Source: Ruminococcus sp. (GTDB taxonomy: Bacteria; Bacillota; Clostridia; Oscillospirales; Ruminococcaceae). From it: a stretch of DNA of 64,000 nt. Of this stretch, positions 26,857-45,728 are shown piece by piece. The stretch spans positions 1 to 64,000 of the forward strand of contig JAIDQQ010000007.1 in the NCBI GenBank assembly GCA_029062165.1, given 5' to 3'. Below the pieces are notes generated by a model. That model saw only the letters and a program-made list of their open reading frames with translations, did not search any database and was not told the origin of the DNA. How positions within the stretch are numbered: position 1 is the stretch's first letter; each line of letters starts with the position of its first letter. Both the position numbers and the translations under genes were made by a program.

Positions 26857-27369
26857 ATGAAAAGATGTTTTAAAATAAGATGGTCTGAAATCAGGTATAA
26901 ACTTGAAAAAGAATATCTCGCCGAATCGCTGAGAGGTCATATAAGATACTTTGCGACAAGTTACAATAAATATCCTGACAATGAGGGCAGGGCTTCAATT
27001 CTGCTTGACGGCAAGGAAATAATAGAGGGCAGTTATTACGGACACTGGAAAAATTATCATCTGCTCCCTGAAGATGAAAATTTTGAACTCCGCATCAGAA
27101 GATTAGGCGAATTTCCCATTATGGACGATGTATCTTTACAGTTCGGACAGTTTGACCAAAGATGTTTTTACAAAGCTTTTTATGAGTTTGACAACCAGTC
27201 AATAGAAAAAAGTCTGTTTAGTGAAAACGCTATCGTAAGAGTTTTTGCAGTTCTTGACCGTCGCATAGGTAAAAGGCGGTTACGTGCCATGAAAGATACC
27301 GTACATAACGAGGGTGAAGTTTTCCGGACGTTCTTTAAAATACGTGCTACAGCGGAGGGTATTATATGA
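26857..27369 (+). CDS. SF0329-like protein, first tandem copy
   Basis: A 170-residue basic, soluble protein with no signal peptide. The start WSEIRYKLEKEYLAESL, the middle GRASILLDGKEI and the end VFAVLDRRIGKRRL recall the SF0329 family, whose function is unknown to me. AGAGGTGA precedes the ATG. Its stop overlaps the start of a second, closely similar gene by 4 bases (ATGA). The last 180 bases of both copies are nearly identical at DNA level, so the duplication is recent or kept uniform by gene conversion. The N-terminal halves differ more. Confidence 0.65.
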   Translation: MKRCFKIRWSEIRYKLEKEYLAESLRGHIRYFATSYNKYPDNEGRASILLDGKEIIEGSYYGHWKNYHLLPEDENFELRIRRLGEFPIMDDVSLQFGQFDQRCFYKAFYEFDNQSIEKSLFSENAIVRVFAVLDRRIGKRRLRAMKDTVHNEGEVFRTFFKIRATAEGII

Positions 27370-27860
27370 AAACATGGTCTAAAATCCGGTATAAACTTGA
27401 AAATGAATATCTTGCCGAATCGTTAAGAGGTCATATCCTGTACTTTGCGACAAGTTACAATAAATGTCCCGACCATTACGGACGTGCTTCAATTCTGCTT
27501 GACGGTAAGGAAATAATAGAGGGCAGTTACTGGGAACGTGGAAGCAAAGCTCCCCTGCTCCCGAAAGACGAAAATCATAGACTTAGAACATCATATTATC
27601 CATTTCTCATTATGGACGATGTGGCTTTACAGTTCGGACAGTTTGACCAAAGTTGCTTTTACAAAGCTTTTTATGAGTTTGACAACCAGTCTATAGAAAA
27701 AAGTCTGTCCAGTGAAAACGCTATCGTAAGAGTATTCGCAGTTCTTGACCGTCGCATAGGTAAAAGGCGGTTACGGGCTATGAAAGACACCATACATAAC
27801 GAGGGCGAAGTTTTCCGGACGTTCTTTAAAATACGTGCCACTGCGGAGGGCATAATATGA
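27366..27860 (+). CDS. SF0329-like protein, second tandem copy
   Basis: A 164-residue paralog of the preceding gene. It shares the YKLENEYLAESLRGH start and an almost unchanged C-terminal 60 residues. Differences cluster in the middle, where YYGHWKNYH is replaced by YWERGSKAP and a few residues are lost. That hints at different partners or substrates. The upstream copy's end GCGGAGGG serves as its ribosome site. The stop again overlaps the next gene (a lipoprotein) by ATGA, so the three genes are translationally coupled. Confidence 0.65.
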   Translation: MKTWSKIRYKLENEYLAESLRGHILYFATSYNKCPDHYGRASILLDGKEIIEGSYWERGSKAPLLPKDENHRLRTSYYPFLIMDDVALQFGQFDQSCFYKAFYEFDNQSIEKSLSSENAIVRVFAVLDRRIGKRRLRAMKDTIHNEGEVFRTFFKIRATAEGII

Positions 27861-28201
27861 AAAAATTTTTACTTATACTTATACCGGTAATGATGCTGTT
27901 CTGTTCATGTAACGAAAAACTCGTAAATATGACCAGTACCGATAATGGCGAATATACTTCTATAATATGGGACGATAAAAAATATGTACCGTTCTGTGTG
28001 GTATCGAAAAACGATTGCGGTAAGAAAATAGGCTACGTCAACGGCGAAAAAGATAATGTTATAAGTCAGTACAAAGACCTGTCACCTGATGAGTGGTTAG
28101 CTAACTATCTCACTATGGACGGCGGTGCTATGCTTTTAAAGGAAGTAAATGTATCTGATATTCCGTATGGTCTGCAATCTGAATATAATATCACTGAATA
28201 A
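27857..28201 (+). CDS. Small lipoprotein
   Basis: A 114-residue secreted lipoprotein. The signal peptide ends in LFCSCN, giving a lipobox with Cys18. The mature part is about 95 residues, with two cysteines and a YTSIIWDDKKYVPFC strand. I do not recognise the family. It is coupled to the duplicated genes by a 4-base overlap. Its last 11 bases overlap the 3' end of the convergent membrane-protein gene, with no terminator between them. Confidence 0.7.
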   Translation: MKKFLLILIPVMMLFCSCNEKLVNMTSTDNGEYTSIIWDDKKYVPFCVVSKNDCGKKIGYVNGEKDNVISQYKDLSPDEWLANYLTMDGGAMLLKEVNVSDIPYGLQSEYNITE

Positions 28202-28496
28202 TTTCCTCATTATCCGGATGACTTTCCTTGTATTCACGTACTTTTTTACGGACACGAATAAAGTTTCCAATAGCCACTATCTGAAATGCCAATACAAAAA
28301 ACCTAATTACATAAAGAATATCAAGATTGATTCCCCGTTTGAGACAGAAAAGCACAGGAACACTCAAAAAAAATAATCCTATAACTTCCTCTATATCTCC
28401 GTAAATTATACCTATTATTAAGAAAACAACAAACACTACCGCCGGTATTAACGCAAGAACAAACAATATATTAGTATATGCCGGAACTTTCTTCAT
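28191..28496 (-). CDS. Small membrane protein, family D (one module)
   Basis: A 101-residue protein with three hydrophobic helices and a charged tail KKVREYKESHPDNEE. It begins KKVPAYTNILFVLALIPAV and is a paralog of the next gene, which starts KKIPLHTIIFFYLSLVPVV and ends in a similar R-x-x-KESH tail. The start at 28496 has AGGAGTGA; the longer reading extends into the neighbouring gene. Last gene of the 28.2-34.4 kb array. Function unknown. Confidence 0.7.
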   Translation of the reverse strand: MKKVPAYTNILFVLALIPAVVFVVFLIIGIIYGDIEEVIGLFFLSVPVLFCLKRGINLDILYVIRFFVLAFQIVAIGNFIRVRKKVREYKESHPDNEEIIQ

Positions 28497-28500
28497 ATAA

Positions 28501-28983
28501 TCACTCCTTATCTGTATGACTTTCTTTGTTGTCACGGACTTGTTTACGAGCATCAGAATAACCTACGATTGCCGCTGTCTGCAAAAATATTACAACAGGT
28601 GATAAAAGAATTATTATTGCCAGTGGAAAACCGTAAAATAAAAGTGTTCCACATACTATAACAAAAATTAATGACATCACAATAGAAAAATAAAAACATT
28701 TAACGGTGAATAAAGGAATTTTATTTTCATTATATCTTTTGTAACTATTGTATACTTGTTTATAGGCATCAACATAATTAACAATAGCTGATATCTGCAA
28801 ATACACTACAATAATTGCTAAAAAGGTTGTTGCAGGGAACGATGCAAAAGAGTATGCCATTCCGTCGAAAATCTCGCTGGGGCCTCCTTGAAATATACAT
28901 ATTCCCCATGCAATCATAAAAAGCACTACCGGCACAAGCGAAAGATAAAAAAATATAATAGTATGTAATGGTATTTTCTTCAT
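28501..28983 (-). CDS. Membrane protein, family D (two fused modules)
   Basis: A 160-residue protein made of two related modules. Residues 1-85 start KKIPLHTIIFFYLSLVP and end AIVNYVDAYKQV; residues 86-160 start NKIPLFTVKCFYFSI and end AIVGYSDARKQV. Each has two to three membrane helices. The downstream gene carries a single copy of the same module. The ATG at 28983 follows GGAGGTGA, which is also the stop region of the gene upstream, so translation is coupled. No known family is recognised. Confidence 0.7.
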   Translation of the reverse strand: MKKIPLHTIIFFYLSLVPVVLFMIAWGICIFQGGPSEIFDGMAYSFASFPATTFLAIIVVYLQISAIVNYVDAYKQVYNSYKRYNENKIPLFTVKCFYFSIVMSLIFVIVCGTLLFYGFPLAIIILLSPVVIFLQTAAIVGYSDARKQVRDNKESHTDKE

Positions 28984-28987
28984 ATAA

Positions 28988-29449
28988 TCACCTCCATTTA
29001 GCTGTTGACCAGTCATTAATAAAATCTCCGGAAATTATAGAAAATACACATAATATCAATGCACCTGCTCCGATAACTATTGCCGGAAATATCCAATATT
29101 TTGAAAGTCCTGTTTTTTTGTACCACAATTTATATAACAGTAAATTAAGTCCATATGGCAGAAATACCGCTGTTTCAATAATTATTAATCCGTTAAAAAA
29201 ATCAGATAAATGAATACTTTCCAATTTATAATAATGTCCATCTGCTGACATAAGCCATAGTCCACCGCAAACCGCATATATTACGCTCCAAAAAATTACA
29301 AGGTTAAGTATTAGTGAAAAAATTTTCGTCACCGTACTCCATACAGAATTTTTTCCGGAATATATTTCCTGACGGAAAAAATTTCTTACTATAAAGCAAA
29401 ATCCGATTGCATTAACTATAACCACCAAAAAGAAAATAATTATTGTCAT
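28988..29449 (-). CDS. Membrane protein, family A/B (one module)
   Basis: A 153-residue protein with four to five membrane helices. It shares with its neighbour the start MTIIIFFLVVIVN, the segment SVWSTVTKIFS and the core FLPYG...LYKLWYKK...SKYWIFPA, ending in DWSTAKW. The same core in looser form occurs in the genes at 29454, 30079, 30757 and 31145. The ribosome site AAGGTGA overlaps the upstream stop codon. It has no signal peptide and no catalytic motif. Function unknown. Confidence 0.7.
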   Translation of the reverse strand: MTIIIFFLVVIVNAIGFCFIVRNFFRQEIYSGKNSVWSTVTKIFSLILNLVIFWSVIYAVCGGLWLMSADGHYYKLESIHLSDFFNGLIIIETAVFLPYGLNLLLYKLWYKKTGLSKYWIFPAIVIGAGALILCVFSIISGDFINDWSTAKWR

Positions 29450-29453
29450 ATAA

Positions 29454-29918
29454 TCACCTTATCCATTCAGATGTTGACCAGTCTTTTATATATCCGATGG
29501 TAATCACACATAATACAGCCAGTAAAAAAGTTACCGCCCCTATCAGTAATGCCGGAAATATCCACCATTTACAGAGATTGTTTTTTCTGTACCATACTTT
29601 ATACAAAAACATATTTATCCCATACGGTAAAAAAACTGACGCTTCCATTAATAAAAAACCTGTAAAGAAATCGGATACGTAAATTTTATGATAATTATAA
29701 AAAATACCTCTTGTTGACATGAACATAAAACCGATTAAAAATCCCCAGAATACACCATAAATAAGTACAAGGTTAAGTATTACTGAAAAAACTTTTGTCA
29801 CCGTACTCCATACGGATTTTTTGCCGGTATATCTTTCCATTCGGAAAAAATTTCTTACTATAAAATAAAATCCGATTATATTAACTATAACCACCAAAAA
29901 GAAAATAATTATTGTCAT
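29454..29918 (-). CDS. Membrane protein, family A/B (one module)
   Basis: A 154-residue close paralog of the next gene in the array: near-identical first 26 residues, SVWSTVTKVFS, FLPYGINMFLYKVWYRK, WWIFPALLIGA and the DWSTSEW end. The start at 29918 was chosen over an upstream in-frame start because the paralog begins at the same point and AGGAGG-like GGAGG lies before it. Its ATG overlaps the TGA at 29915-29917, which ends the frame of the interrupted upstream gene. That ATGA coupling suggests the upstream gene was once intact. Confidence 0.7.
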   Translation of the reverse strand: MTIIIFFLVVIVNIIGFYFIVRNFFRMERYTGKKSVWSTVTKVFSVILNLVLIYGVFWGFLIGFMFMSTRGIFYNYHKIYVSDFFTGFLLMEASVFLPYGINMFLYKVWYRKNNLCKWWIFPALLIGAVTFLLAVLCVITIGYIKDWSTSEWIR

Positions 29919-30091
29919 ATAAAAACCTCCGTAAGTCCGTACCAGTATAACAGAAATGCTCCGATACTTATAATTATCGCCGGAAACGTCCACCATTCAG
30001 ACAGACCATTTTTCTTATATAAACGTCTGTATAACAGAAGATTTATTCCGTATGGAAAAAATATCGCTACTTCAGCCGTTATAAAGCCCCC
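29915..30091 (-). pseudogene. Displaced 3' part of the two-module membrane gene
   Basis: On the minus strand this stretch reads in a frame one base off that of the gene at 30079. It encodes GFITAEVAIFFPYGINLLLY, then a KKNGLSEWWTFPA block and a hydrophobic end. That is exactly the second half of the A/B module that the upstream gene lacks. It has no start codon or ribosome site of its own, and its stop overlaps the next ATG. Adding one G to the GGGGG run (plus 30087-30091) would join it to the upstream frame. Either a real frameshift or a base-calling error. Confidence 0.7.
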
Positions 30092-30747
30092 AGTCTCACA
30101 CCGATAAACGCTATCACTCCCGACGTTATATTTATTACAACCGAAAGAACTTTCATAATAGAAGTGTATTCTGTATAATTTCCGCAGGATTTTTTATTCC
30201 GGAAAAAACGTCTTGTAATCAGAATGAACATTATTGTATGTATAACAAGCACTATCGCACAAAATATATCTGTACTTTCAATAAAATAATTTATGATTAT
30301 TCCCGAATATATTAAAAAAGTCATAAGGCTGATTATTTTTGATGGTATAATCCATTTTTCAGAAATTTTCCTGTAACTGTAACATTTATTATATAAAAAT
30401 CTTGTTACCTTGTATGGAAAAAATATCAATAAATAAAATATCGGTATCAATATAATCAACGTGATAAAATGTTCAGATGTATATTCAAAAACTACTTCTC
30501 CTCCTTCACAACATTCCGAATAAACAGTACGTGGAAATGACAAAAGCAAACAAAATGCTAATATTAAATATTCCAGATAAATCTGAAAAATTTCCCCTGT
30601 TACAATGAAAAATTTAGTAAAAATACTTCTGGTTGAAAAAATTATTAAAATGCCTGATAATACCATAACCGCAAGTAATGCAAAAAACAATTGCGGACAT
30701 TCAAAATCACAAATTATTTCCCAAAAAAATTCAATCATTATATCCAC
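30079..30747 (-). CDS. Two-module membrane protein, 3' end cut by a frameshift
   Basis: A 222-residue membrane protein with about six helices. Residues 30-145 are a complete A/B module (IFTKFFIVTGEIFQ, FFPYKVTRFLYNKCY, KISEKWIIPSKIIS). From about residue 150 a second module begins (RRFFRNKKSC, TSIMKVLSVVIN). It ends abruptly at IGVRLGAL because of the TAA at 30079-30081. The missing half of module two follows in the +1 frame. The ATG is preceded by GGAGGTGG. Restored, it would be about 277 residues. Confidence 0.7.
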   Translation of the reverse strand: MDIMIEFFWEIICDFECPQLFFALLAVMVLSGILIIFSTRSIFTKFFIVTGEIFQIYLEYLILAFCLLLSFPRTVYSECCEGGEVVFEYTSEHFITLIILIPIFYLLIFFPYKVTRFLYNKCYSYRKISEKWIIPSKIISLMTFLIYSGIIINYFIESTDIFCAIVLVIHTIMFILITRRFFRNKKSCGNYTEYTSIMKVLSVVINITSGVIAFIGVRLGAL

Positions 30748-30756
30748 CTCCGGTCA

Positions 30757-31140
30757 TTAAATCTTCAGAAAATCAAGAATACTTCCGATTATATATATTA
30801 ATACTGTCATAATACTTATTATTTTTGATACTATAATCCAGTATTCAGAAATTTTCTGTCCCTCATAATACCACCAGTACAAACATTTAGTCAGTCCGTA
30901 TGGCAGAAACGCAAATACTATAAATATCAGTGTTACTATGATAATATGAAATATATCCTGTATTTCAAAAGAAATTTTTACAGCTTCAAAAGATTCATAT
31001 GCAACCCACTTCCCGAAAGCCAAAGTTCCAAACACCGCAAGCATTAAATAACTACATAAAATTTGCAGAATATCCCCTATTATAATAAAAATTTTAATTA
31101 TAGTATTTTTTCTGAAAATTTCATAATTAAATCCTCTCAT
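30757..31140 (-). CDS. Membrane protein, family A/B, short N-terminus
   Basis: A 127-residue protein with three to four helices. It carries NTIIKIFIIIGDILQIL, FLPYGLTKCLYWWYY and KISEYWIIVSKIISIMTVLIY, so it is the same module as the next gene upstream. It lacks the first membrane helix present there, and no clear ribosome site precedes its ATG, which lies 4 bases past the upstream stop. It may be N-terminally truncated or rely on translational coupling. Confidence 0.6.
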   Translation of the reverse strand: MRGFNYEIFRKNTIIKIFIIIGDILQILCSYLMLAVFGTLAFGKWVAYESFEAVKISFEIQDIFHIIIVTLIFIVFAFLPYGLTKCLYWWYYEGQKISEYWIIVSKIISIMTVLIYIIGSILDFLKI

Positions 31141-31144
31141 ATAT

Positions 31145-31588
31145 TCAGGTAGTCAATACTATTCCAATTATATATATCAATACTGTTATAATGCTTATTA
31201 TTTTTGATGGTATAATCCAGCGTTCCGATACTTTTCTTTTTTTATAATACCACTTATATAAACACTTGCTCATTCCGTATGGCAACAACACAAACACAAA
31301 AAATATCAGTGTTACTATAGCACTACGGAATATATACCATATTCCTATTTCATGAGCAAACTTTATTGCTCTGAATATGTCAAGTCCGCCCAAAGCCCAC
31401 AAAGCCAGAAGATATAGCGTAAGCATAAAAAGCTCCCATAAAATTTGCAGAATATCTCCTATTACAATGAAAATTTTAGTAATTATAGTATTTTCTGATA
31501 TTGTCATAAAAAATCCTAACAATATTTCCACCACAAGAAATACCGACACCATCAGCCAAAATATACCTGACTCAAGAATCATAAACAT
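31145..31588 (-). CDS. Membrane protein, family A/B (one module, full length)
   Basis: A 147-residue protein with about four helices. Module blocks are NTIITKIFIVIGDILQIL, LLPYGMSKCLYKWYYKK and KVSERWIIPSKIISIITVLIY. An extra N-terminal helix (about residues 8-30) is missing in its downstream paralog. AGGAGG precedes the ATG. It lies 9 bases beyond the stop of the PstS-like gene, so the two are clearly co-transcribed. Confidence 0.7.
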   Translation of the reverse strand: MFMILESGIFWLMVSVFLVVEILLGFFMTISENTIITKIFIVIGDILQILWELFMLTLYLLALWALGGLDIFRAIKFAHEIGIWYIFRSAIVTLIFFVFVLLPYGMSKCLYKWYYKKRKVSERWIIPSKIISIITVLIYIIGIVLTT

Positions 31589-31597
31589 AAAGTCCTC

Positions 31598-32551
31598 CTA
31601 TTCTACAGGAATATATCCAGATTTTTCAATAATTTCCTGTCCGTCGTCGGATAGAATCCAGTCAGTTAATAATTTTACATTAGGATTTGTATTGTCTTTT
31701 CTGTATACCGCATAGAAGTCAACAGTCACCGGATATTTTCCGGCGGAAATGTTTTCCTTATCTGGATATACTTCGTTCACCGAAAGCATTTTAACTCCAC
31801 CATTGGCAACTATTCCGGAAACATAGTATCTGAACGAAAAACCTATAGCACGTCCCATGAATCCAAACGGATTTTTTTTCATAGGCGTACCGCCCATAAA
31901 TGACATCATAACCGATTGACTTCCGCTACCCTCGATACGCTGTACAGGGTCAATTACTGACCTATCACCGCCGACTTCTGACCAGTTCTTATATTTTCCG
32001 GAGTACATACCCTGTATCTGCTCTACAGTAAGATTATCTACCGGATTATCATTACTTACTATGAATACAAACGCTTCATGTCCTATCGGTACAAACTCCA
32101 GTTCCACACCATGCTCCTGTGCGTAATCGAGTTGTTGTTGTGAGGGTTCGGCACAGAAAATAATATCCGCATCACCGTCCACAACCGCCTTATATGCCTT
32201 TAAAGTATTCGTATAGTGTAATGCACTTTCTGTAGTAAAATTTTCGCCGTCAAAAAATACGCTGTCTTCCGGATATACAGCATTTACGAAGCCCGAAAAT
32301 ACCGGATACAATGCCGCTGCACCGTCTATAACCGGTAAATTTTCGGTCAGTTTAAAATCCGTATCTATTTTTACAACTTCTGAATTTTCCACAAACGGTA
32401 AATATTTATCCAGTTCTATGGATTTCGCCTGCATTTGTTCGCTTGTATCGTTTATGTAACGCTTCGTGAACAGGTTATATACAGACATATCAAATCCCAC
32501 AAAGACGAGTATTATCAATAATATCGCCGTAATCTGTCGGAAAAGTTTCAT
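31598..32551 (-). CDS. Membrane-tethered PstS-like solute-binding protein
   Basis: A 317-residue protein with a type-2 periplasmic-binding fold of the phosphate/PstS group (PBP-like). The start IDGAAALYPVFSGFVNAV, the middle DADIIFCAEPS and EGSGSQSVMMSF, and a DWILSDDGQEIIEKSGYIP end are typical. Residues 7-27 form an uncleaved-looking membrane anchor and there is no lipobox, unlike most Gram-positive PstS. No pstC, pstA, pstB or phoU gene is nearby. In this setting it may sense a ligand rather than feed a transporter. GGAGG precedes the ATG. Confidence 0.85.
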   Translation of the reverse strand: MKLFRQITAILLIILVFVGFDMSVYNLFTKRYINDTSEQMQAKSIELDKYLPFVENSEVVKIDTDFKLTENLPVIDGAAALYPVFSGFVNAVYPEDSVFFDGENFTTESALHYTNTLKAYKAVVDGDADIIFCAEPSQQQLDYAQEHGVELEFVPIGHEAFVFIVSNDNPVDNLTVEQIQGMYSGKYKNWSEVGGDRSVIDPVQRIEGSGSQSVMMSFMGGTPMKKNPFGFMGRAIGFSFRYYVSGIVANGGVKMLSVNEVYPDKENISAGKYPVTVDFYAVYRKDNTNPNVKLLTDWILSDDGQEIIEKSGYIPVE

Positions 32552-32557
32552 AGATAA

Positions 32558-32695
32558 TCAGCCTCCGTTTGCAATGTACGATATTATGGAACAGTTTTCG
32601 TGCAGATAGAATGTATACGCTACCAGTATACCCGTACTTATCGCACCTATTATTAAAATTATTATCAGTATTTTTTCAAAAAGTTTGTCATTCAT
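32558..32695 (-). CDS. 45-residue single-pass membrane protein
   Basis: This frame runs from the ATG at 32693-32695 to the TGA at 32558-32560. AGGAGT precedes it by 8 bases. The product has one long hydrophobic helix (about residues 8-28) flanked by NDKLFEKIL and a short tail with HENCS. Its final codons supply the GGAGG for the PstS-like gene that starts 6 bases later, so the two are coupled. Too short to assign, but ribosome site, coding style and position all support a real gene. Confidence 0.65.
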   Translation of the reverse strand: MNDKLFEKILIIILIIGAISTGILVAYTFYLHENCSIISYIANGG

Positions 32696-32708
32696 TCTGA
32701 ACACTCCT

Positions 32709-32921
32709 TTATATATGATTAAGTGAAATTGAAATCATTATAACCAATGCAACAACTGAAATAAATAGTATTCCGGCAAGCACCGCCGATACTATAAATT
32801 TTTTCTTTCGTTTCTTATAACATAAATGTTCTTTCGGCGTACCCTTAAACTCACGCAGGGACATTGTAAAAAATAAAAGTATTCCTATCGGTATTATCTG
32901 AAACAAAAAATCCAAAAACAT
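32709..32921 (-). CDS. Two-helix membrane protein, family C (one module)
   Basis: A 70-residue protein: helix 1 (IIPIGILLFFTMSL), a cytosolic-looking loop EFKGTPKEHLCYKKRKKK, then helix 2 (VSAVLAGILFISVVALVIM). The basic loop between two helices predicts both ends outside. It is nearly the same as the gene at 33350, and the same module occurs twice in the gene at 32935. AGGAG precedes the ATG. Confidence 0.7.
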   Translation of the reverse strand: MFLDFLFQIIPIGILLFFTMSLREFKGTPKEHLCYKKRKKKFIVSAVLAGILFISVVALVIMISISLNHI

Positions 32922-32934
32922 ATAAAAATAACTC

Positions 32935-33336
32935 CTACATATATCTAATTATCATCTGGGTCATAATGAACAGTACCACAAATGCCGATACAAATATTCC
33001 GGCGAGTACTGCAAAAGTTATACACATAGTTTTTATTACCTTGTATTTTCCGCTGTCTTTCGGAGTTCTTTTCAGCAGAATAAGCGATACTATGAAAAAT
33101 ATCAGTATTCCCACCGGTATGAACAGAAAAAGCCCATACAATACATCAAGCCTTATAAATGACAGTATAATTATAGTTATAAGTATTCCGGCAAGTATAG
33201 ACGATGTTATAAAAGCATTTTTCCTTGACTTGTATTTTTCGCTGTCTACCGAAGTTTTTTTCCATAAAATAAGCGATACTATAAAAAATAAAATTATTCC
33301 TACCGGTATTGCCGTAACTAATAAATCTCCAAACAT
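32935..33336 (-). CDS. Four-helix membrane protein, family C (two fused modules)
   Basis: A 133-residue protein built from two head-to-tail C modules: AIPVGIILFFIVSLILWKKT...SSILAGILITI and FIPVGILIFFIVSLILLKRTP...FAVLAGIFVSA. It is flanked on both sides by genes with a single module, a clear case of duplication and fusion. GGAGG precedes the ATG. No catalytic residues are visible. Function unknown. Confidence 0.7.
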   Translation of the reverse strand: MFGDLLVTAIPVGIILFFIVSLILWKKTSVDSEKYKSRKNAFITSSILAGILITIIILSFIRLDVLYGLFLFIPVGILIFFIVSLILLKRTPKDSGKYKVIKTMCITFAVLAGIFVSAFVVLFIMTQMIIRYM

Positions 33337-33349
33337 ATAAAATCCTCCT

Positions 33350-33571
33350 TTACATATGCGTAAGTGAAATTGAAATCATTATAAATAATCCTATAACTGA
33401 TGCTAAAATTATTCCCATAAGTACCGCCGATACTATCAACTTTTTCTTTCGTTTCTTATAGTATAAATGGTCTTTCGGCGTACCCTTAAATTCAAGCAGT
33501 GACATTATAAAAAATATTATTATCCCTACCGGTATTCCTATAAACAAAAAAATCAATATAATGCTTGACAT
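33350..33571 (-). CDS. Two-helix membrane protein, family C (one module)
   Basis: A 73-residue protein with GIPVGIIIFFIMSL, the loop EFKGTPKDHLYYKKRKKK and the second helix ending VIGLFIMISISLTHM. The loop and tail are almost identical to those of the gene at 32709, so the two are recent paralogs. AGGAGG precedes the ATG. Part of the leftward array. Confidence 0.7.
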   Translation of the reverse strand: MSSIILIFLFIGIPVGIIIFFIMSLLEFKGTPKDHLYYKKRKKKLIVSAVLMGIILASVIGLFIMISISLTHM

Positions 33572-33646
33572 ATAAAATACCTCCTTTATATTTATAAAAA
33601 TAAATATTATGAATAGTTATAATTATTTAATTAAAGATATAAAATA

Positions 33647-34090
33647 TTATATACCATCAATGTCTCTTCTTATTGCTACTTCCATAAGAGAATCATTTTC
33701 ATCAAATGCTAAGTAAGCAAAAACAGCAGTATGGAATGGGCTATAAAATTCTCCTAATTCCACGAACATCGCTTTTTTTCCGACAATTCGGCTACTGGCG
33801 TATTTTGAACCATTAGACATTTCATCAGTACTTGCAAAATCAACACTTTCAGCTGAATCATTTATTTCAAGTCCGTGTTCAATATCCACTATCTTTATTA
33901 CCCATTTATTTTCATTAATGATTTTAGTTGCATCTTCCCAACTTGTTCCGATTGATATTTCTCTTATTACATAATTCCTGACAGATTTATTTGAAAGTAC
34001 AATCGGAAAGAAAGTCCATAATAACACATATGCTAAAACAGATATAATAACTATCAGAACAACTTTAATAAACTTTAAAAAATCCCACAT
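33647..34090 (-). CDS. Single-pass membrane protein of unknown function
   Basis: A 147-residue protein. One N-terminal membrane helix (about residues 7-30) is followed by a soluble domain of about 115 residues that begins NKSVRNYVIREISIGTSWEDA and ends VAIRRDIDGI. The domain is mixed alpha/beta and hints at a small sensor-like fold, but I do not recognise it. AAAGGAGG precedes the ATG. It is second in the array and unrelated to families A-D. Confidence 0.65.
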   Translation of the reverse strand: MWDFLKFIKVVLIVIISVLAYVLLWTFFPIVLSNKSVRNYVIREISIGTSWEDATKIINENKWVIKIVDIEHGLEINDSAESVDFASTDEMSNGSKYASSRIVGKKAMFVELGEFYSPFHTAVFAYLAFDENDSLMEVAIRRDIDGI

Positions 34091-34115
34091 TTAAAAATCC
34101 TCCTTTATGTTTATT

Positions 34116-34358
34116 TCAGAATCCGAATCCAAGTAAAAATTCACGTAATCCGCCAAGTATTGAACTAAAAAATATACTGAAAATTACATCTACTATAAGT
34201 ATAAGTATATATATTTTTATTAGTATTATAAAAATCATCGCTAATACATTAAAAAATTTTTTTATTCCGGAACAGATTTTATTTTCCGGCGGATTTATTT
34301 TCAGCGAAATCAAAGATATAATAAATAATATAGGTATAACAGCCTTCAAAAAATCCAA
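34116..34358 (-). CDS. Small membrane protein with TTG start
   Basis: An 80-residue protein with two to three hydrophobic helices and a Gly-rich end. The start is taken as the TTG at 34358 because AAAGGAGG lies 10 bases upstream of it. The only upstream ATG in frame (34403) has no ribosome site and would begin in poor coding sequence. First gene after the array promoter. No family recognised. Confidence 0.55.
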   Translation of the reverse strand: MDFLKAVIPILFIISLISLKINPPENKICSGIKKFFNVLAMIFIILIKIYILILIVDVIFSIFFSSILGGLREFLLGFGF

Positions 34359-34444
34359 TATTTTAAAACCTCCTTTATTATAACATACAAAAAAACTGTA
34401 CACAATTAATCCGCTTTTACAGAAAAGTTATATTCCATATACAA

Positions 34445-34560: not shown

Positions 34561-35109
34561 ATGTTGCTTATATCACTGAAAGAAGTTCCGAAAAAGGAAC
34601 AGCGTTCCCATGCACATAACCTGCTCCGTGAGTGTCTCCGGACAAGGCATATAGAGTACGTCACAGACCAGACACCCATTATCCGTAACGAACATGGTAA
34701 GCCCTCACTTGCGGAATTTCCGGAAATAAAATATAATCTCTCCCACGCTGACGGCATAGCAGTATGTCTCATAGCAGATTCTGAATGCGGTGTCGACTGC
34801 GAGGGTGTACGCCCATACCGTCCTAACGTAGTCAGACGGTCATTTTCCGAAAACGAAAAGTTTCTTATTGAAAACGCTCCCGAAACTGAACGTGATTTAT
34901 TATTCTTCCGTCTGTGGACTCTCAAAGAAGCATACGTCAAGGCGATAGGTATAGGCATTTCATATCCGCTGAATACAGTAGAATTTTCTTTCGACGGCGA
35001 TAAGATAATATCTTCCGTGAAAGACCATAATTTCAGACAGTACATTCTTAAAGACGGAAAATTTATAGTTTCAGTATGTACTAAAAATAAAGGTGGTTTA
35101 TATGAATAA
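34561..35109 (+). CDS. Sfp-type 4'-phosphopantetheinyl transferase
   Basis: This enzyme class moves the phosphopantetheine arm of CoA to a Ser on carrier proteins. The 182-residue protein has the NLSHADGIAVC strand near residue 59, the metal motif GVDCE near residue 78 and WTLKEAYVKAIG near residue 120 (the W-x-x-KEA motif). It is slightly shorter than Sfp. Carrier-protein, NRPS or PKS genes are not in the window, so its target is unknown. It heads a plus-strand operon: the next gene starts 8 bases before its end. Confidence 0.93.
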   Translation: MLLISLKEVPKKEQRSHAHNLLRECLRTRHIEYVTDQTPIIRNEHGKPSLAEFPEIKYNLSHADGIAVCLIADSECGVDCEGVRPYRPNVVRRSFSENEKFLIENAPETERDLLFFRLWTLKEAYVKAIGIGISYPLNTVEFSFDGDKIISSVKDHNFRQYILKDGKFIVSVCTKNKGGLYE

Positions 35110-37015
35110 CAATAACAATAATAATAATCCTTATAATAACACAAATCAGAATTATCCATATAATAATCCTAATCAGAACTACCAGTATAATAACAATCCA
35201 TACAATAACCCTAATCAGAACTACCAGTATAATAACAATCCATACAACAACCCTAATCAGAACTACCAGTATAATAATAATCCATATAACAACATTAATC
35301 CTGATTTTAACAATAATACCAATATCCGAAAACCGTCTTTTTCAGCTCTGCATATAACACTTATAGTTATAATAATCGTTCTGGCAGTAGTAATATTTGC
35401 TTTGTCTGCTGTAATATCTGCACTCAAAAAAGACGATAACCCGAAAAACTCCGGAAATAATAATCTTATATCCGTCGGCGACAGTGAAAATATATCTGAA
35501 TCTGAAGACACTGAAGAAGATTATACCGAAGAAGAAGAAACTGAACCCGAAACTGAAACATTTACAGGTGAACTCGCTGTACCATTATTAGGCGAGTTTG
35601 ACGGCAAGCCTACTGAAGACGGAAACGGTGTTATTCTCCGTCTTGACTGGAATGCCGTTGAAAATGCTGACGGTTACGAAATCGAGGCGATTGAAACAGA
35701 AGATAATTCCGGTGAACCTTATGAACGTAAAATTATTACATCAGATACATATTTTGAAACCGGTTCTTCTGTTGCGGTAAAGATAAAGACACGAGTAAGA
35801 GCCTACAATGGTGACGAAGATAACAGGGTATACGGTGAATGGAGTGAACCTGTTGAATGTAATCTCAAGGATTTTGTCAAGACGAAAAAAATAAAAGTTT
35901 CGTCTACACCTGTTCCGGTTTACTACGTGACCATAAATAACTATAAACTTCAGATGTATAACAGTCCCGATTATGAGTTTTTCGCATATGACTACATAAC
36001 TGACAGAGGTACTTATACTATGACCGAACGTAAAGGACGGTGGGGCAAACTTCAATCGGGTAAGTGGATAAATCTCGATGACGCCGACAAGCAAGGCTGG
36101 ATTTCTATAAGAGGTACTAAGGCATATGTTTCCACTAAAAAAGACCCTCTTACAATACGGTACGCACCTACAAAATCTTCAAAGGCTATAGGATATATCC
36201 CGAAAGACGAATCAATAAACGTACACAATATAGATATTGACGGCTGGTACTACGTAACCTATGACGGAATATCCGGATTCATTTCAGGTGAATATGTATC
36301 TTTCGGCACTCCCGATAAGTTTGAAGCCTATACTATGGAAATAAACAACTATAATCTTCCGGTATACAAGAAAGCAGATAAAAGTTCCGATATAATCAAA
36401 TACATAAATGACCGTGATACTTATACTATAGTAGAACACGACAGTTCAGACAAATGGGGTAAACTTAAAAACAATGGCTGGATAAATCTCAAAGATGCCC
36501 GTACTTTCGGCAAAAAAGGTTCAGGCGAAACGGCTTATGTTTCGACAACTACTGAACCGCTTACACTCCGTTATGGTCCTGATACAAGTGCAAAAAAAGT
36601 CACTTCAATAGATAAAGGCGAATCAATAACTGTACACAACATAGATTTAAATGACTGGTACTACGTAGAATATAAAAACAAAAACGGTTTTGTATCTGCA
36701 AAGTACGTCACACTGGGTGAACCCGAAAAAACTGAAACTACTACCGAAACTACCGAAACAACAGAAACTACTACAAAATCCACTACTACCGCCACAACAA
36801 CTGAAATTACTGAAACTGAACAGCATACGGAATACACAGAACCTGTAACTGAACCACCATACATTGAAACTCAACCACCTGTCATTGAAACTGACCCACC
36901 TGAAACTATACCTCCTGTCATTGAGACTGCACCGCCTGTTATAGAAACTGACCCACCAATAGAAATTCCGGACAGCTTTGACGATACTGAAATATTTGAT
37001 TCATACGACTACTAA
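35102..37015 (+). CDS. Asn-rich membrane protein with FnIII and two SH3b domains
   Basis: A 637-residue protein. Residues 1-75 are Asn/Tyr/Pro/Gln-rich with three exact 14-residue repeats. A membrane helix follows at about 85-107, so the N-terminus is inside and the rest outside. Next come an acidic linker, an FnIII-like domain (about 160-260, with LDWNAVENADGYEI) and two SH3b domains near 340-405 and 480-545 (each with PLT.RY and VHNID...WYYV). A Thr/Glu then Pro-rich tail closes it. SH3b domains often bind peptidoglycan. The start at 35102 follows AAAGGTGG. Confidence 0.85.
   Translation: MNNNNNNNNPYNNTNQNYPYNNPNQNYQYNNNPYNNPNQNYQYNNNPYNNPNQNYQYNNNPYNNINPDFNNNTNIRKPSFSALHITLIVIIIVLAVVIFALSAVISALKKDDNPKNSGNNNLISVGDSENISESEDTEEDYTEEEETEPETETFTGELAVPLLGEFDGKPTEDGNGVILRLDWNAVENADGYEIEAIETEDNSGEPYERKIITSDTYFETGSSVAVKIKTRVRAYNGDEDNRVYGEWSEPVECNLKDFVKTKKIKVSSTPVPVYYVTINNYKLQMYNSPDYEFFAYDYITDRGTYTMTERKGRWGKLQSGKWINLDDADKQGWISIRGTKAYVSTKKDPLTIRYAPTKSSKAIGYIPKDESINVHNIDIDGWYYVTYDGISGFISGEYVSFGTPDKFEAYTMEINNYNLPVYKKADKSSDIIKYINDRDTYTIVEHDSSDKWGKLKNNGWINLKDARTFGKKGSGETAYVSTTTEPLTLRYGPDTSAKKVTSIDKGESITVHNIDLNDWYYVEYKNKNGFVSAKYVTLGEPEKTETTTETTETTETTTKSTTTATTTEITETEQHTEYTEPVTEPPYIETQPPVIETDPPETIPPVIETAPPVIETDPPIEIPDSFDDTEIFDSYDY
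35162..35287 (+). repeat. Three in-frame 42-bp direct repeats
   Basis: Three adjacent copies of a 42-bp unit encode NNPNQNYQYNNNPY. DNA identity is near complete, with only synonymous changes in a few Asn and Tyr codons. This makes repeat-number variation likely. The repeats are in the cytosolic, prion-like N-terminus of the SH3b protein. Confidence 0.9.
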
Positions 37016-43977: not shown

Positions 43978-44682
43978 TTATCCCCAACGCCTCTTGTCAA
44001 GTACTCTCACTGTGAAGAAGTTGAACAGAAACGCAACACTAAGGAAAAATACTACACTCGGAAGACTGAAAATTCCCTGTGTGAACTCGATATATCTTGA
44101 ATAAAATGAAAGTGATGTAATTGCTTTACTGATATACTCGTTTGAAATGTTTACCGCAAACGAATCGAACAAATAGAGTACGAAAAGTGCCAACATACTC
44201 GCTACTGCTGAAGCCATCTGGTTTTCTGTCAGCGACGATATAAAAAGTCCTACCGCTATAAATGCTGAACCTAAAAACAACATTGCAAAATAATTTCCTA
44301 AAAGAGTAGTCCATACAACGTCGCCTAACACCGCAAGGAATATCGAATATATAAATACAACGCTTTCGGCTATTACGAAAAGTGTCAATGCGGCGAAATA
44401 CTTACCTAAAACTATATCCCATAAGCCGACGGGGGCTGTAAGTAAGCCTTGGTCAGTTTTGTTTTTCTTTTCCTCGCTCAGAAGTCGCATTGTAAGTATG
44501 GGTATAAGGAAAAGTATTATTATAAACATACTGCTGAACATCGGTGATGTATCTGTTCTTCCCGAACCTATTACACCGGCATAGAAAAAATATCCCGAAA
44601 GCAGATAGAACACCGAAAGAAATACATATGCTACCCCCGATGTGAAAAATGCACCTACTTCACGCCTGTAAATCGCACCCAT
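43978..44682 (-). CDS. ABC-2 type permease (GldF-like)
   Basis: A 234-residue polytopic permease with six hydrophobic helices. The start MGAIYRREVGAFFTSGVAYV and the block LLSEEKKNKTDQGLLTAPV near residue 68 are typical of ABC-2 (NatB/GldF) subunits. It partners the ATPase upstream, whose last codons overlap its start (TAATG). GGAGG lies before the ATG. The substrate is unknown. Confidence 0.92.
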   Translation of the reverse strand: MGAIYRREVGAFFTSGVAYVFLSVFYLLSGYFFYAGVIGSGRTDTSPMFSSMFIIILFLIPILTMRLLSEEKKNKTDQGLLTAPVGLWDIVLGKYFAALTLFVIAESVVFIYSIFLAVLGDVVWTTLLGNYFAMLFLGSAFIAVGLFISSLTENQMASAVASMLALFVLYLFDSFAVNISNEYISKAITSLSFYSRYIEFTQGIFSLPSVVFFLSVAFLFNFFTVRVLDKRRWG

Positions 44683-45728
44683 TATTCATTACCTCCGTTT
44701 TCTTCTGCTTCCTCCGCTGAACTCTCCTCGAATTTCAGATTTATACGTGGTCTTTCATTCGGTTCAAGTTTAACGTCATTTTCGCCCATAGTGATTTTAA
44801 GGAATATATCTTCAAGTGTAAGGTCAGAAAGTTGCAACATAAGTATATTCCAGCCCTTTTCACGACACAGGGCATTAAGTGAACGTCTTATATCTGTTTT
44901 TTCGTCCGCTTCAACGTCGTAATCATAAATACCTCTTTCACGTTCCATATCCGCACGGACGTACTTTATACCTTTCAGCGATTTTATAGCCTTTACAATT
45001 TCTTCTTTGTCGGCGGAAGTCTTAGTAGTACCCTCTATGCGTAAAGTCATTTTATGTTCGTTGGTGAGCTGTCGGGCGATTTCGTCGGCTGTACCGTCGG
45101 CGGCAACTTCGCCTTTATTTATAATTATTATCCTGTCGCATACCGCCTGAATTTCCGGCAGTATATGCGACGACAGTATAACTGTATGTTTCTTGCCTAA
45201 TTTCTTTATAAGAGTACGTATTTCAATAATCTGATTAGGGTCAAGTCCTACAGTGGGTTCGTCGAGAATCAAAACAGGCGGATTATTTATCAGTGCCTGT
45301 GCGAGACCTACACGCTGTCTGTAACCTTTTGAAAGATTCTTTATTATACGGTCTTTTACGTGGGTTATCTTGCATAAGTCGCATACGTCCTTAAGATGTG
45401 CCTTGCGTGGTAGTCTGCACTTCTTAAGGTCATATACAAAATTAAGATAGCCATCAATGGTCATATCGATATAGAGTGGCGGAATTTCCGGCAGATATCC
45501 GATAGATGCCTTAGCTTTTTTAGGGTCTTCAAAAATGTCAACGCCGTCAACGAGTACCTGTCCGGACGTTGAAGAAATATAACCGGTCAGCATATTCATA
45601 GTAGTCGACTTGCCTGCTCCGTTAGGTCCTAAAAAACCTAATATTTCACCCTGTTCCACCTTGAAACTTATGTTTTTTACGGCTTGTTTGTCGCCGTACT
45701 TCTTACTGAGATTTTTAACCTCAATCAT
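44682..45728 (-). CDS. ABC transporter ATP-binding protein (GldA-like)
   Basis: A 348-residue ATPase. Walker A FLGPNGAGKSTTMNML lies near residue 34, the signature LSKGYRQRVGLAQAL near 133, Walker B VLILDEPTVGLD near 155 and the switch His in LSSHILPE. A C-terminal extension of about 110 residues (with an acidic tail) is typical of this exporter class. GGAGG precedes the ATG. First gene of the export operon. Confidence 0.94.
   Translation of the reverse strand: MIEVKNLSKKYGDKQAVKNISFKVEQGEILGFLGPNGAGKSTTMNMLTGYISSTSGQVLVDGVDIFEDPKKAKASIGYLPEIPPLYIDMTIDGYLNFVYDLKKCRLPRKAHLKDVCDLCKITHVKDRIIKNLSKGYRQRVGLAQALINNPPVLILDEPTVGLDPNQIIEIRTLIKKLGKKHTVILSSHILPEIQAVCDRIIIINKGEVAADGTADEIARQLTNEHKMTLRIEGTTKTSADKEEIVKAIKSLKGIKYVRADMERERGIYDYDVEADEKTDIRRSLNALCREKGWNILMLQLSDLTLEDIFLKITMGENDVKLEPNERPRINLKFEESSAEEAEENGGNE

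Follow-up and report, generated by a model that had tools for sequence, protein, structure and literature searches.

The DNA analysed here, referred to as the window, is a stretch of 64,000 nucleotides from a Ruminococcus sp. genome (contig JAIDQQ010000007.1), whose minus strand carries an array of small membrane-protein genes around the gene for a membrane-tethered PstS-like protein, PST. The conserved unit of this locus consists of three neighbouring genes that encode a small hydrophobic protein of a family named D, an overlooked 45-residue protein named m45, and PST. A preliminary description of the window had taken the array for a single 13-gene system. Its neighbours do recur together in other genomes, and the lack of co-conservation that had been named beforehand as the contrary outcome was not observed; instead of a single 13-gene system, the evidence gives a widespread core (D, m45 and PST) with lineage-limited add-ons.

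The core was traced in 80 loci, the best 80 of 164 PST-profile relatives in named genomes. m45 lies directly upstream of PST in 79 of them, and the remaining locus (L058) is cut at PST by the contig end. With a D profile iterated on those same loci, 75 loci matched at E<0.05; the match in L076 is downstream of PST, which leaves 74/80 loci with D upstream. A single-sequence phmmer search with g11, a D-module protein of the window, found a match somewhere in 55/80 loci. Among the five loci with no D match, L058, L084 and L092 begin near a contig end; the other two are L096 and L108, which, like L076, have short hydrophobic open reading frames (ORFs) upstream of PST when inspected by eye. The gap between D and PST that contains m45 has a near-constant length in most relatives. 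Wider searches gave the same association. Across the order (245 genomes), m45 sits within about 35 nt of PST in all 20 genomes whose PST match is below E 1e-125, and it is in none of the 46 others, whose PST matches are weaker. Four of the five m45 matches in 398 genomes of the phylum are real, one being the window's own, and each of the four is flanked by D and PST. In 100 genomes of the genus, 27 reached the m45 cut-off and 26 were kept, the weak match in G009 being dropped together with a second match in G003; D matches below 1e-9 were confined to contigs that carry m45. Two R. flavefaciens strains, 007c (L071) and ND2009 (L081), are among the core-bearing loci. The m45 matches in G128 (E 3e-4, internal stops) and G492 (within a larger protein) were taken as chance, and that in G167, where the contig ends next to adjoining D copies, was counted neither way.

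m45 begins with a lysine-bearing segment, followed by a single hydrophobic helix and a tail with the motif SIISYIAN, which should lie outside the cell. Position 36 is a serine in every one of the 59 copies that are exactly 45 residues long, and all four TCN codons are used for it; omega is 0.12-0.15 in three pairs. On these grounds m45 is selected as a protein. The gap was also considered as a conserved RNA element and this was rejected, since there was no Rfam match and the m45 codons vary synonymously while the residues hold. The last two residues are GG, GR or RG, and a ribosome-site-like word occurs in 40 of 79 tails; because these positions are partly explained by the PST ribosome site, they were omitted from the protein motif. 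A subfamily of 45-46 residues (L063, L086, L100, L106 and L110) ends in W or WW (SKEWW-like) and not in ANGG. For PST, five pairs gave omega of 0.067-0.09 at a synonymous divergence (dS) of 0.52-1.06, so that, from codon comparisons, both PST and m45 are under purifying selection.

The array itself is real and extends to 34403, beyond the end at 34358 given before. Thirteen co-directional ORFs lie on the minus strand between 28191 and 34403, as had been counted, and m45 is a fourteenth gene that the count had overlooked. In the order of transcription, the features are as follows (TM, transmembrane segment):

g13, 34116..34403, minus strand: 95 residues, remote D-type hydrophobic protein, assigned by a D profile match
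g12, 33647..34090, minus strand: 147 residues, one TM and an extracytoplasmic part
g11, 33350..33571, minus strand: 73 residues, D module, two TM
g10, 32935..33336, minus strand: 133 residues, two D modules fused
g9, 32709..32921, minus strand: 70 residues, D module adjoining m45; core subunit
m45, 32558..32695, minus strand: 45 residues, single-pass, conserved outside tail SIISYIAN; core subunit
PST, 31598..32551, minus strand: 317 residues, N-terminal TM tether and PstS-like domain (PF12849, 1.7e-18; PstS relatives in the PDB); core subunit
g7, 31145..31588, minus strand: A/B module
g6, 30757..31140, minus strand: A/B module
g5, 30079..30747, minus strand: one A/B module and the first half of a second
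broken A/B copy, second half, 29918..30127, minus strand: out of frame, completes the second g5 module
g4, 29454..29918, minus strand: A/B module of the second subfamily; likely start 29918, ORF opens at 29996
g3, 28988..29449, minus strand: A/B module of the second subfamily
g2, 28501..28983, minus strand: two C modules fused; likely start 28983, ORF opens at 29016
g1, 28191..28496, minus strand: C module; likely start 28496, ORF opens at 28553

The tight spacing described earlier was borne out, with intergenic gaps of mostly 4-25 nt when likely starts are used. Larger gaps are found between g12 and g11 (75 nt), between g9 and PST (157 nt, containing m45) and between g5 and g4 (about 160 nt, containing half of the broken A/B module). 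The reported ribosome sites were recovered as well, as a AGGTGATTATATG-like sequence repeated at the starts of g1, g2 and g3 (repeat D8). Promoter and terminator scans were at chance level (45 found against 42.3 expected, and 4 against 3.2), and it is therefore the gene spacing only that suggests a single transcript.

The small membrane proteins fall into the module families that had been proposed, although the names differ: the modules called C in the preliminary description are D here, and those called D are C here. All-against-all blastp gave significant similarity, and the contrary outcome named beforehand, no significant similarity, did not occur. The best scores were for g3 and g4 (58% identity, 4e-62), g6 and g7 (53%, 2e-27), g9 and g11 (72%, 3e-23) and g5 and g6 (43-44%, 8e-19 and 1e-14 depending on the query); the g10 halves matched g9 (1e-13, 4e-11), the g2 halves matched g1 (1e-8, 5e-6), and g3 and g4 matched g5-g7 at 3e-4 to 1e-7. 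The count of six A/B modules in five genes (g7, g6, g5 twice, g4, g3) stands, but the second g5 module is in frame only for its first half. Four D modules in three genes (g9, g10 twice, g11) and three C modules in two genes (g2 twice, g1) agree with the earlier counts, and g13 is a weak fifth D copy by the D profile. Residues Y95, Y102, Y106 and W115 are invariant across 22 aligned A/B modules. D and A/B as a single family was ruled out, the hhalign probability being within 0.7-4.4%.

The add-ons are far more restricted than the core. A/B modules occur in 10/80 loci (L031-L040) and C modules in 6/80, and L041 and L042 have the core alone. A/B was likewise found in 10 of the 100 genus genomes, with all 36 matches on an m45 contig, and the protein database holds 18 g7 homologs including g7 itself. 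One to eight A/B modules were matched per locus, partial ones counted. The A/B tree, built from 36 of 44 modules after those of fewer than 70 residues were left out, has two deep halves and orthologous groups that span species, so that the first duplications are old, with later movement of sequences. Most reading frames are intact within these groups; matches in G002, G027 and G712 have in-frame stops, some of which may span gene ends. Together with long direct repeats in the array, up to 89% identical, these comparisons show add-ons that vary in number, fuse and decay; judged by its sequence, the array is young and mosaic. A phage or mobile origin was rejected, as neither a g7 query nor a PST profile found relatives in the viral contigs of IMG/VR. 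Identity with a known defence family was also rejected, since 10 of the 14 proteins (all but g4, g6, g9 and g11, each with a paralog among those searched) matched no PADLOC family at E 0.1.

DNA comparisons with related loci point to exchange of add-on sequences between species. Against L032, identity is mostly 98-100% from 34403 to about 33000, 66-68% in g9 and about 90% in PST; g13 is 97-98% identical to its L032 copy (dS 0.02-0.03), and L032 is the only one of the 80 loci with a g12 counterpart. Against L033, g7 is 93-97% identical and PST mostly 82-89%. Here 3 synonymous differences over 88 sites separate the g7 copies (dS 0.03), compared with dS of 0.55 and 1.07 for the two measurable flanking genes (binomial p 4e-15 against 0.55). 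Against L034, g2 is 91-98% identical, dropping to 72-78% within g1. Two of the five comparisons gave no sharp mosaic: in L036, g7 is 82-89% and PST 75-86% identical, and in L035 the stretch, with two genes in swapped order, was aligned out of register and is uninformative. L034 is titled Alistipes senegalensis and is probably a mislabelled metagenome-assembled genome, because its PST is 88% identical to that of the window and its flanks are syntenic with it. A survey of reciprocal-best pairs at least 60% identical, a choice that favours recent pairs and beside which unselected contrasts were computed separately, gave dS below that of PST in 36/40 A/B, 18/20 C and 70/80 D pairs; in 24/40, 13/20 and 23/80, respectively, it was less than half the PST value. 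The D modules came from a g13-seeded profile widened to the D family. These patterns show swapping of add-on sequences between species.

In the same pairs, median omega was 0.385 for A/B, 0.385 for C and 0.28 for D, compared with 0.08 for PST; flanking genes had medians of 0.08-0.16. Omega of the add-ons reaches about 1 in g7, but omega >1 for g7 was not significant (Fisher p 0.59). The diversifying selection suggested earlier is thus retained in part: A/B and C are far less constrained than PST, vary in copy number and are exchanged between species, but without significant omega >1, relaxed constraint may also explain the add-ons.

PST has one N-terminal hydrophobic stretch before its PF12849 domain, which is predicted from charges to lie outside the cell. 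It has a PstS-like binding-protein fold and its closest solved relatives are PstS proteins (~24-25% identical to PDB 4gd5 and 4q8r), and it scores 82.9 bits against TIGR02136, below the curated cut-off of 206.6 bits. Compared with canonical PstS, the R...(G/A)SG(S/T) loop is kept and the first-lobe loops are changed. The same genome has pstS-pstC-pstA-pstB-phoU with a response regulator on contig C31 (names assigned from the sequences), and the PstS encoded there has the lipoprotein form. No PstC-, PstA- or PhoU-like ORF was detected in the window, the 80 loci or 11 single-chain loci described below (phmmer with the genome's own proteins, 1e-5); at least 2 kb of sequence was present on both sides at 62/80 loci. 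Because the loci have no Pst-type permease and the genome has a complete pst operon, the PST unit is unlikely to be an ABC importer in its own right.

In 11 loci (L111-L121), more distant homologs combine this ectodomain (profile E 1e-90) and TM helices in a single chain. The AF2 model of one example (pLDDT 85) has four helices preceding the domain, and among the 120 listed of 4558 matches NCBI calls these proteins, where named, 'substrate-binding domain-containing protein'. No m45 match was found in L111-L121; L120 gave a weak D match (E 0.004, 11 sequences), and an ABC ATPase (PstB-like) adjoins the single-chain gene in L114. D and A/B as pieces of the single-chain TM domain were rejected (hhalign probability within 0.7-4.4%), as was m45 (5.4%). 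Three single-chain proteins of 683-697 residues (P0182, P0190 and P0192) have an extra C-terminal part of ~270 residues with no Pfam family at the cut-off, and in L115 and L121 the gene adjoins a similar-looking secreted protein of 407-428 residues, by eye a possible partner. A Foldseek search of a single-chain homolog against viral models returned remote folds resembling binding proteins as its best matches, with chance matches below them.

We propose, tentatively and with somewhat less than even confidence, that the locus encodes a conserved membrane-tethered receptor core with clade-specific exchangeable membrane add-ons. D (two TM), m45 (one TM and an outside tail) and PST (one TM and an outside PstS-like domain) would form a single complex; the closing of the PstS-like domain on its ligand would be relayed to the small TM partners. 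Such a complex could be a receptor or could present a ligand, working with other cell machinery. In one Ruminococcus group, D has multiplied and the orphan families A/B and C have been added behind PST; the A/B, C and extra D proteins would be accessory subunits that can be exchanged and that tune the complex or protect it. A bolder version, which we regard as quite improbable, is that the dedicated m45 sets the state of the PST ectodomain, with SIISYIAN docking as a latch, and that the fast-changing A/B and C, caught up in an arms race, make up an outer ring of exchangeable subunits; this would be a new kind of bacterial membrane receptor.

Several observations weigh against the proposed receptor core. 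Pfam scans of the locus proteins found no cytoplasmic output domain, and beyond the core no gene cluster is common to more than 17/80 loci, antisense and out-of-frame shadows of the core aside; a response-regulator cluster, near 17/80 loci only, is the next most frequent functional family. The signalling step is thus left with no visible effector. Several of the presumed phosphate-coordinating residues of canonical PstS are altered in PST (DGSTS to DGAAA, TGSGAG to TNTxxA, and SSR lost), with R and SG(S/T) kept. At 10/80 loci, PstB-like ABC ATPase genes are found within 8 kb and never closer than 1.7 kb; at 18/80 loci the available sequence is shorter than 2 kb on one or both sides. The window has such an ATPase at 44682-45728. 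Since D, m45 and A/B have no sequence kinship with the TM part of the single-chain homologs (hhalign at most 5.4%), it is gene organisation only that suggests the same complex in split and fused forms, and m45 and PST both look N-in by charges, which gives no simple mapping to the single-chain form.

The pattern of the add-ons could also reflect a mostly neutral birth and death, in which the core is the part that matters, the add-ons are duplicates under weak constraint, and homologous recombination at similar repeats reshuffles them. The broken A/B module of the window, the in-frame stops elsewhere (with the caveat on gene ends given above), the repeats up to 89% identical, the core-only loci L041 and L042 and a median add-on omega of about 0.4 against 0.08 for PST all fit this account, which we nevertheless consider rather unlikely. 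Against it, orthologous groups of A/B persist from species to species with mostly intact frames, four aromatic residues are invariant in 22 modules and omega is below 1 in most listed pairs. Alternatively, phages, bacteriocins or rivals might exploit PST as a receptor exposed on the cell, and the A/B, C and extra D proteins might be changing shields or immunity-like proteins that are traded between species. Copy-number change, fusions, broken copies, exchange and the g7 omega near 1 would be expected of such an arms race, as would add-ons with few homologs (18 for g7, itself included) whose A/B members stand only beside the core in the 100 genus genomes. It is unlikely given that omega is not significantly above 1, that 10 of the 14 proteins have no PADLOC match and g7 and PST no IMG/VR relatives, and that no toxin or bacteriocin gene was recognised nearby, no search aimed at such genes having been made. 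Very improbable is a role for PST in binding scavenged phosphate and passing it to the Pst permease encoded elsewhere, with m45 and D only as anchors: the PstS fold, the PstS proteins as closest solved relatives and the permease in the same genome would suit it, but PST falls below the TIGR02136 cut-off, differs in the loops around the canonical phosphate site and has a TM tether instead of the lipoprotein form of the genome's own PstS.

Other features flank the array. A tandem gene pair on the plus strand (26857-27860) converges on it; the first gene belongs to the SF0329 family (PF25753, E 2.3e-42), the copies match at 86% by TRF, a small lipoprotein-like ORF follows, and L036 has extra partial copies. 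On the other side, a plus-strand protein (35093-37015) starts with Asn/Tyr/Pro-rich tandem repeats of 27 and 42 nt units, and the adjoining gene (34561-35109) is presumably Sfp-like.

No description of this three-gene unit was found by title and abstract opening, mostly outside subscription journals, under PstS with small membrane proteins, PF12849 receptors, Ruminococcus flavefaciens phosphate binding, microbiome small proteins or tandem immunity arrays. TM receptors with solute-binding-type sensor domains, as presented in PMC9602780, resemble PST in their membrane-held extracytoplasmic binding domain; the locus proteins differ from them in that Pfam scans show no output domain for the cytoplasm, such as a kinase or a cyclase. 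The PstS of PstSCAB importers (PF12849, TIGR02136; 4gd5, 4q8r) shares with PST the two-lobed fold and the R...(G/A)SG(S/T) loop, whereas PST is TM-tethered, encoded with m45 and D and no Pst permease at the locus, below TIGR02136 and changed in its site residues. Immunity arrays against bacteriocins or contact inhibition consist of small, duplicated, exchanged and fast-changing genes, and the array is alike in all four respects; unlike them, it has no recognised toxin partner and is tied to a strictly conserved core. The locus would be a marked case of a conserved core that drives gut species to gain orphan membrane genes again and again, to shuffle them and to swap them with one another. The single-chain TM-PstS proteins of Clostridia include the TM helices in their own chain, lack an m45 match at the 11 loci and have a TM part with no sequence kinship to D, m45 and A/B; they share with PST the ectodomain and, at these loci, the lack of a PstC- or PstA-like ORF. 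The 'substrate-binding domain-containing protein' entries of gut Clostridia are therefore not simply orphan PstS: one branch nearly always comes with a 45-residue and a two-helix protein, the other has TM helices on the same chain, and an annotation gap becomes a concrete candidate for a three-protein complex.

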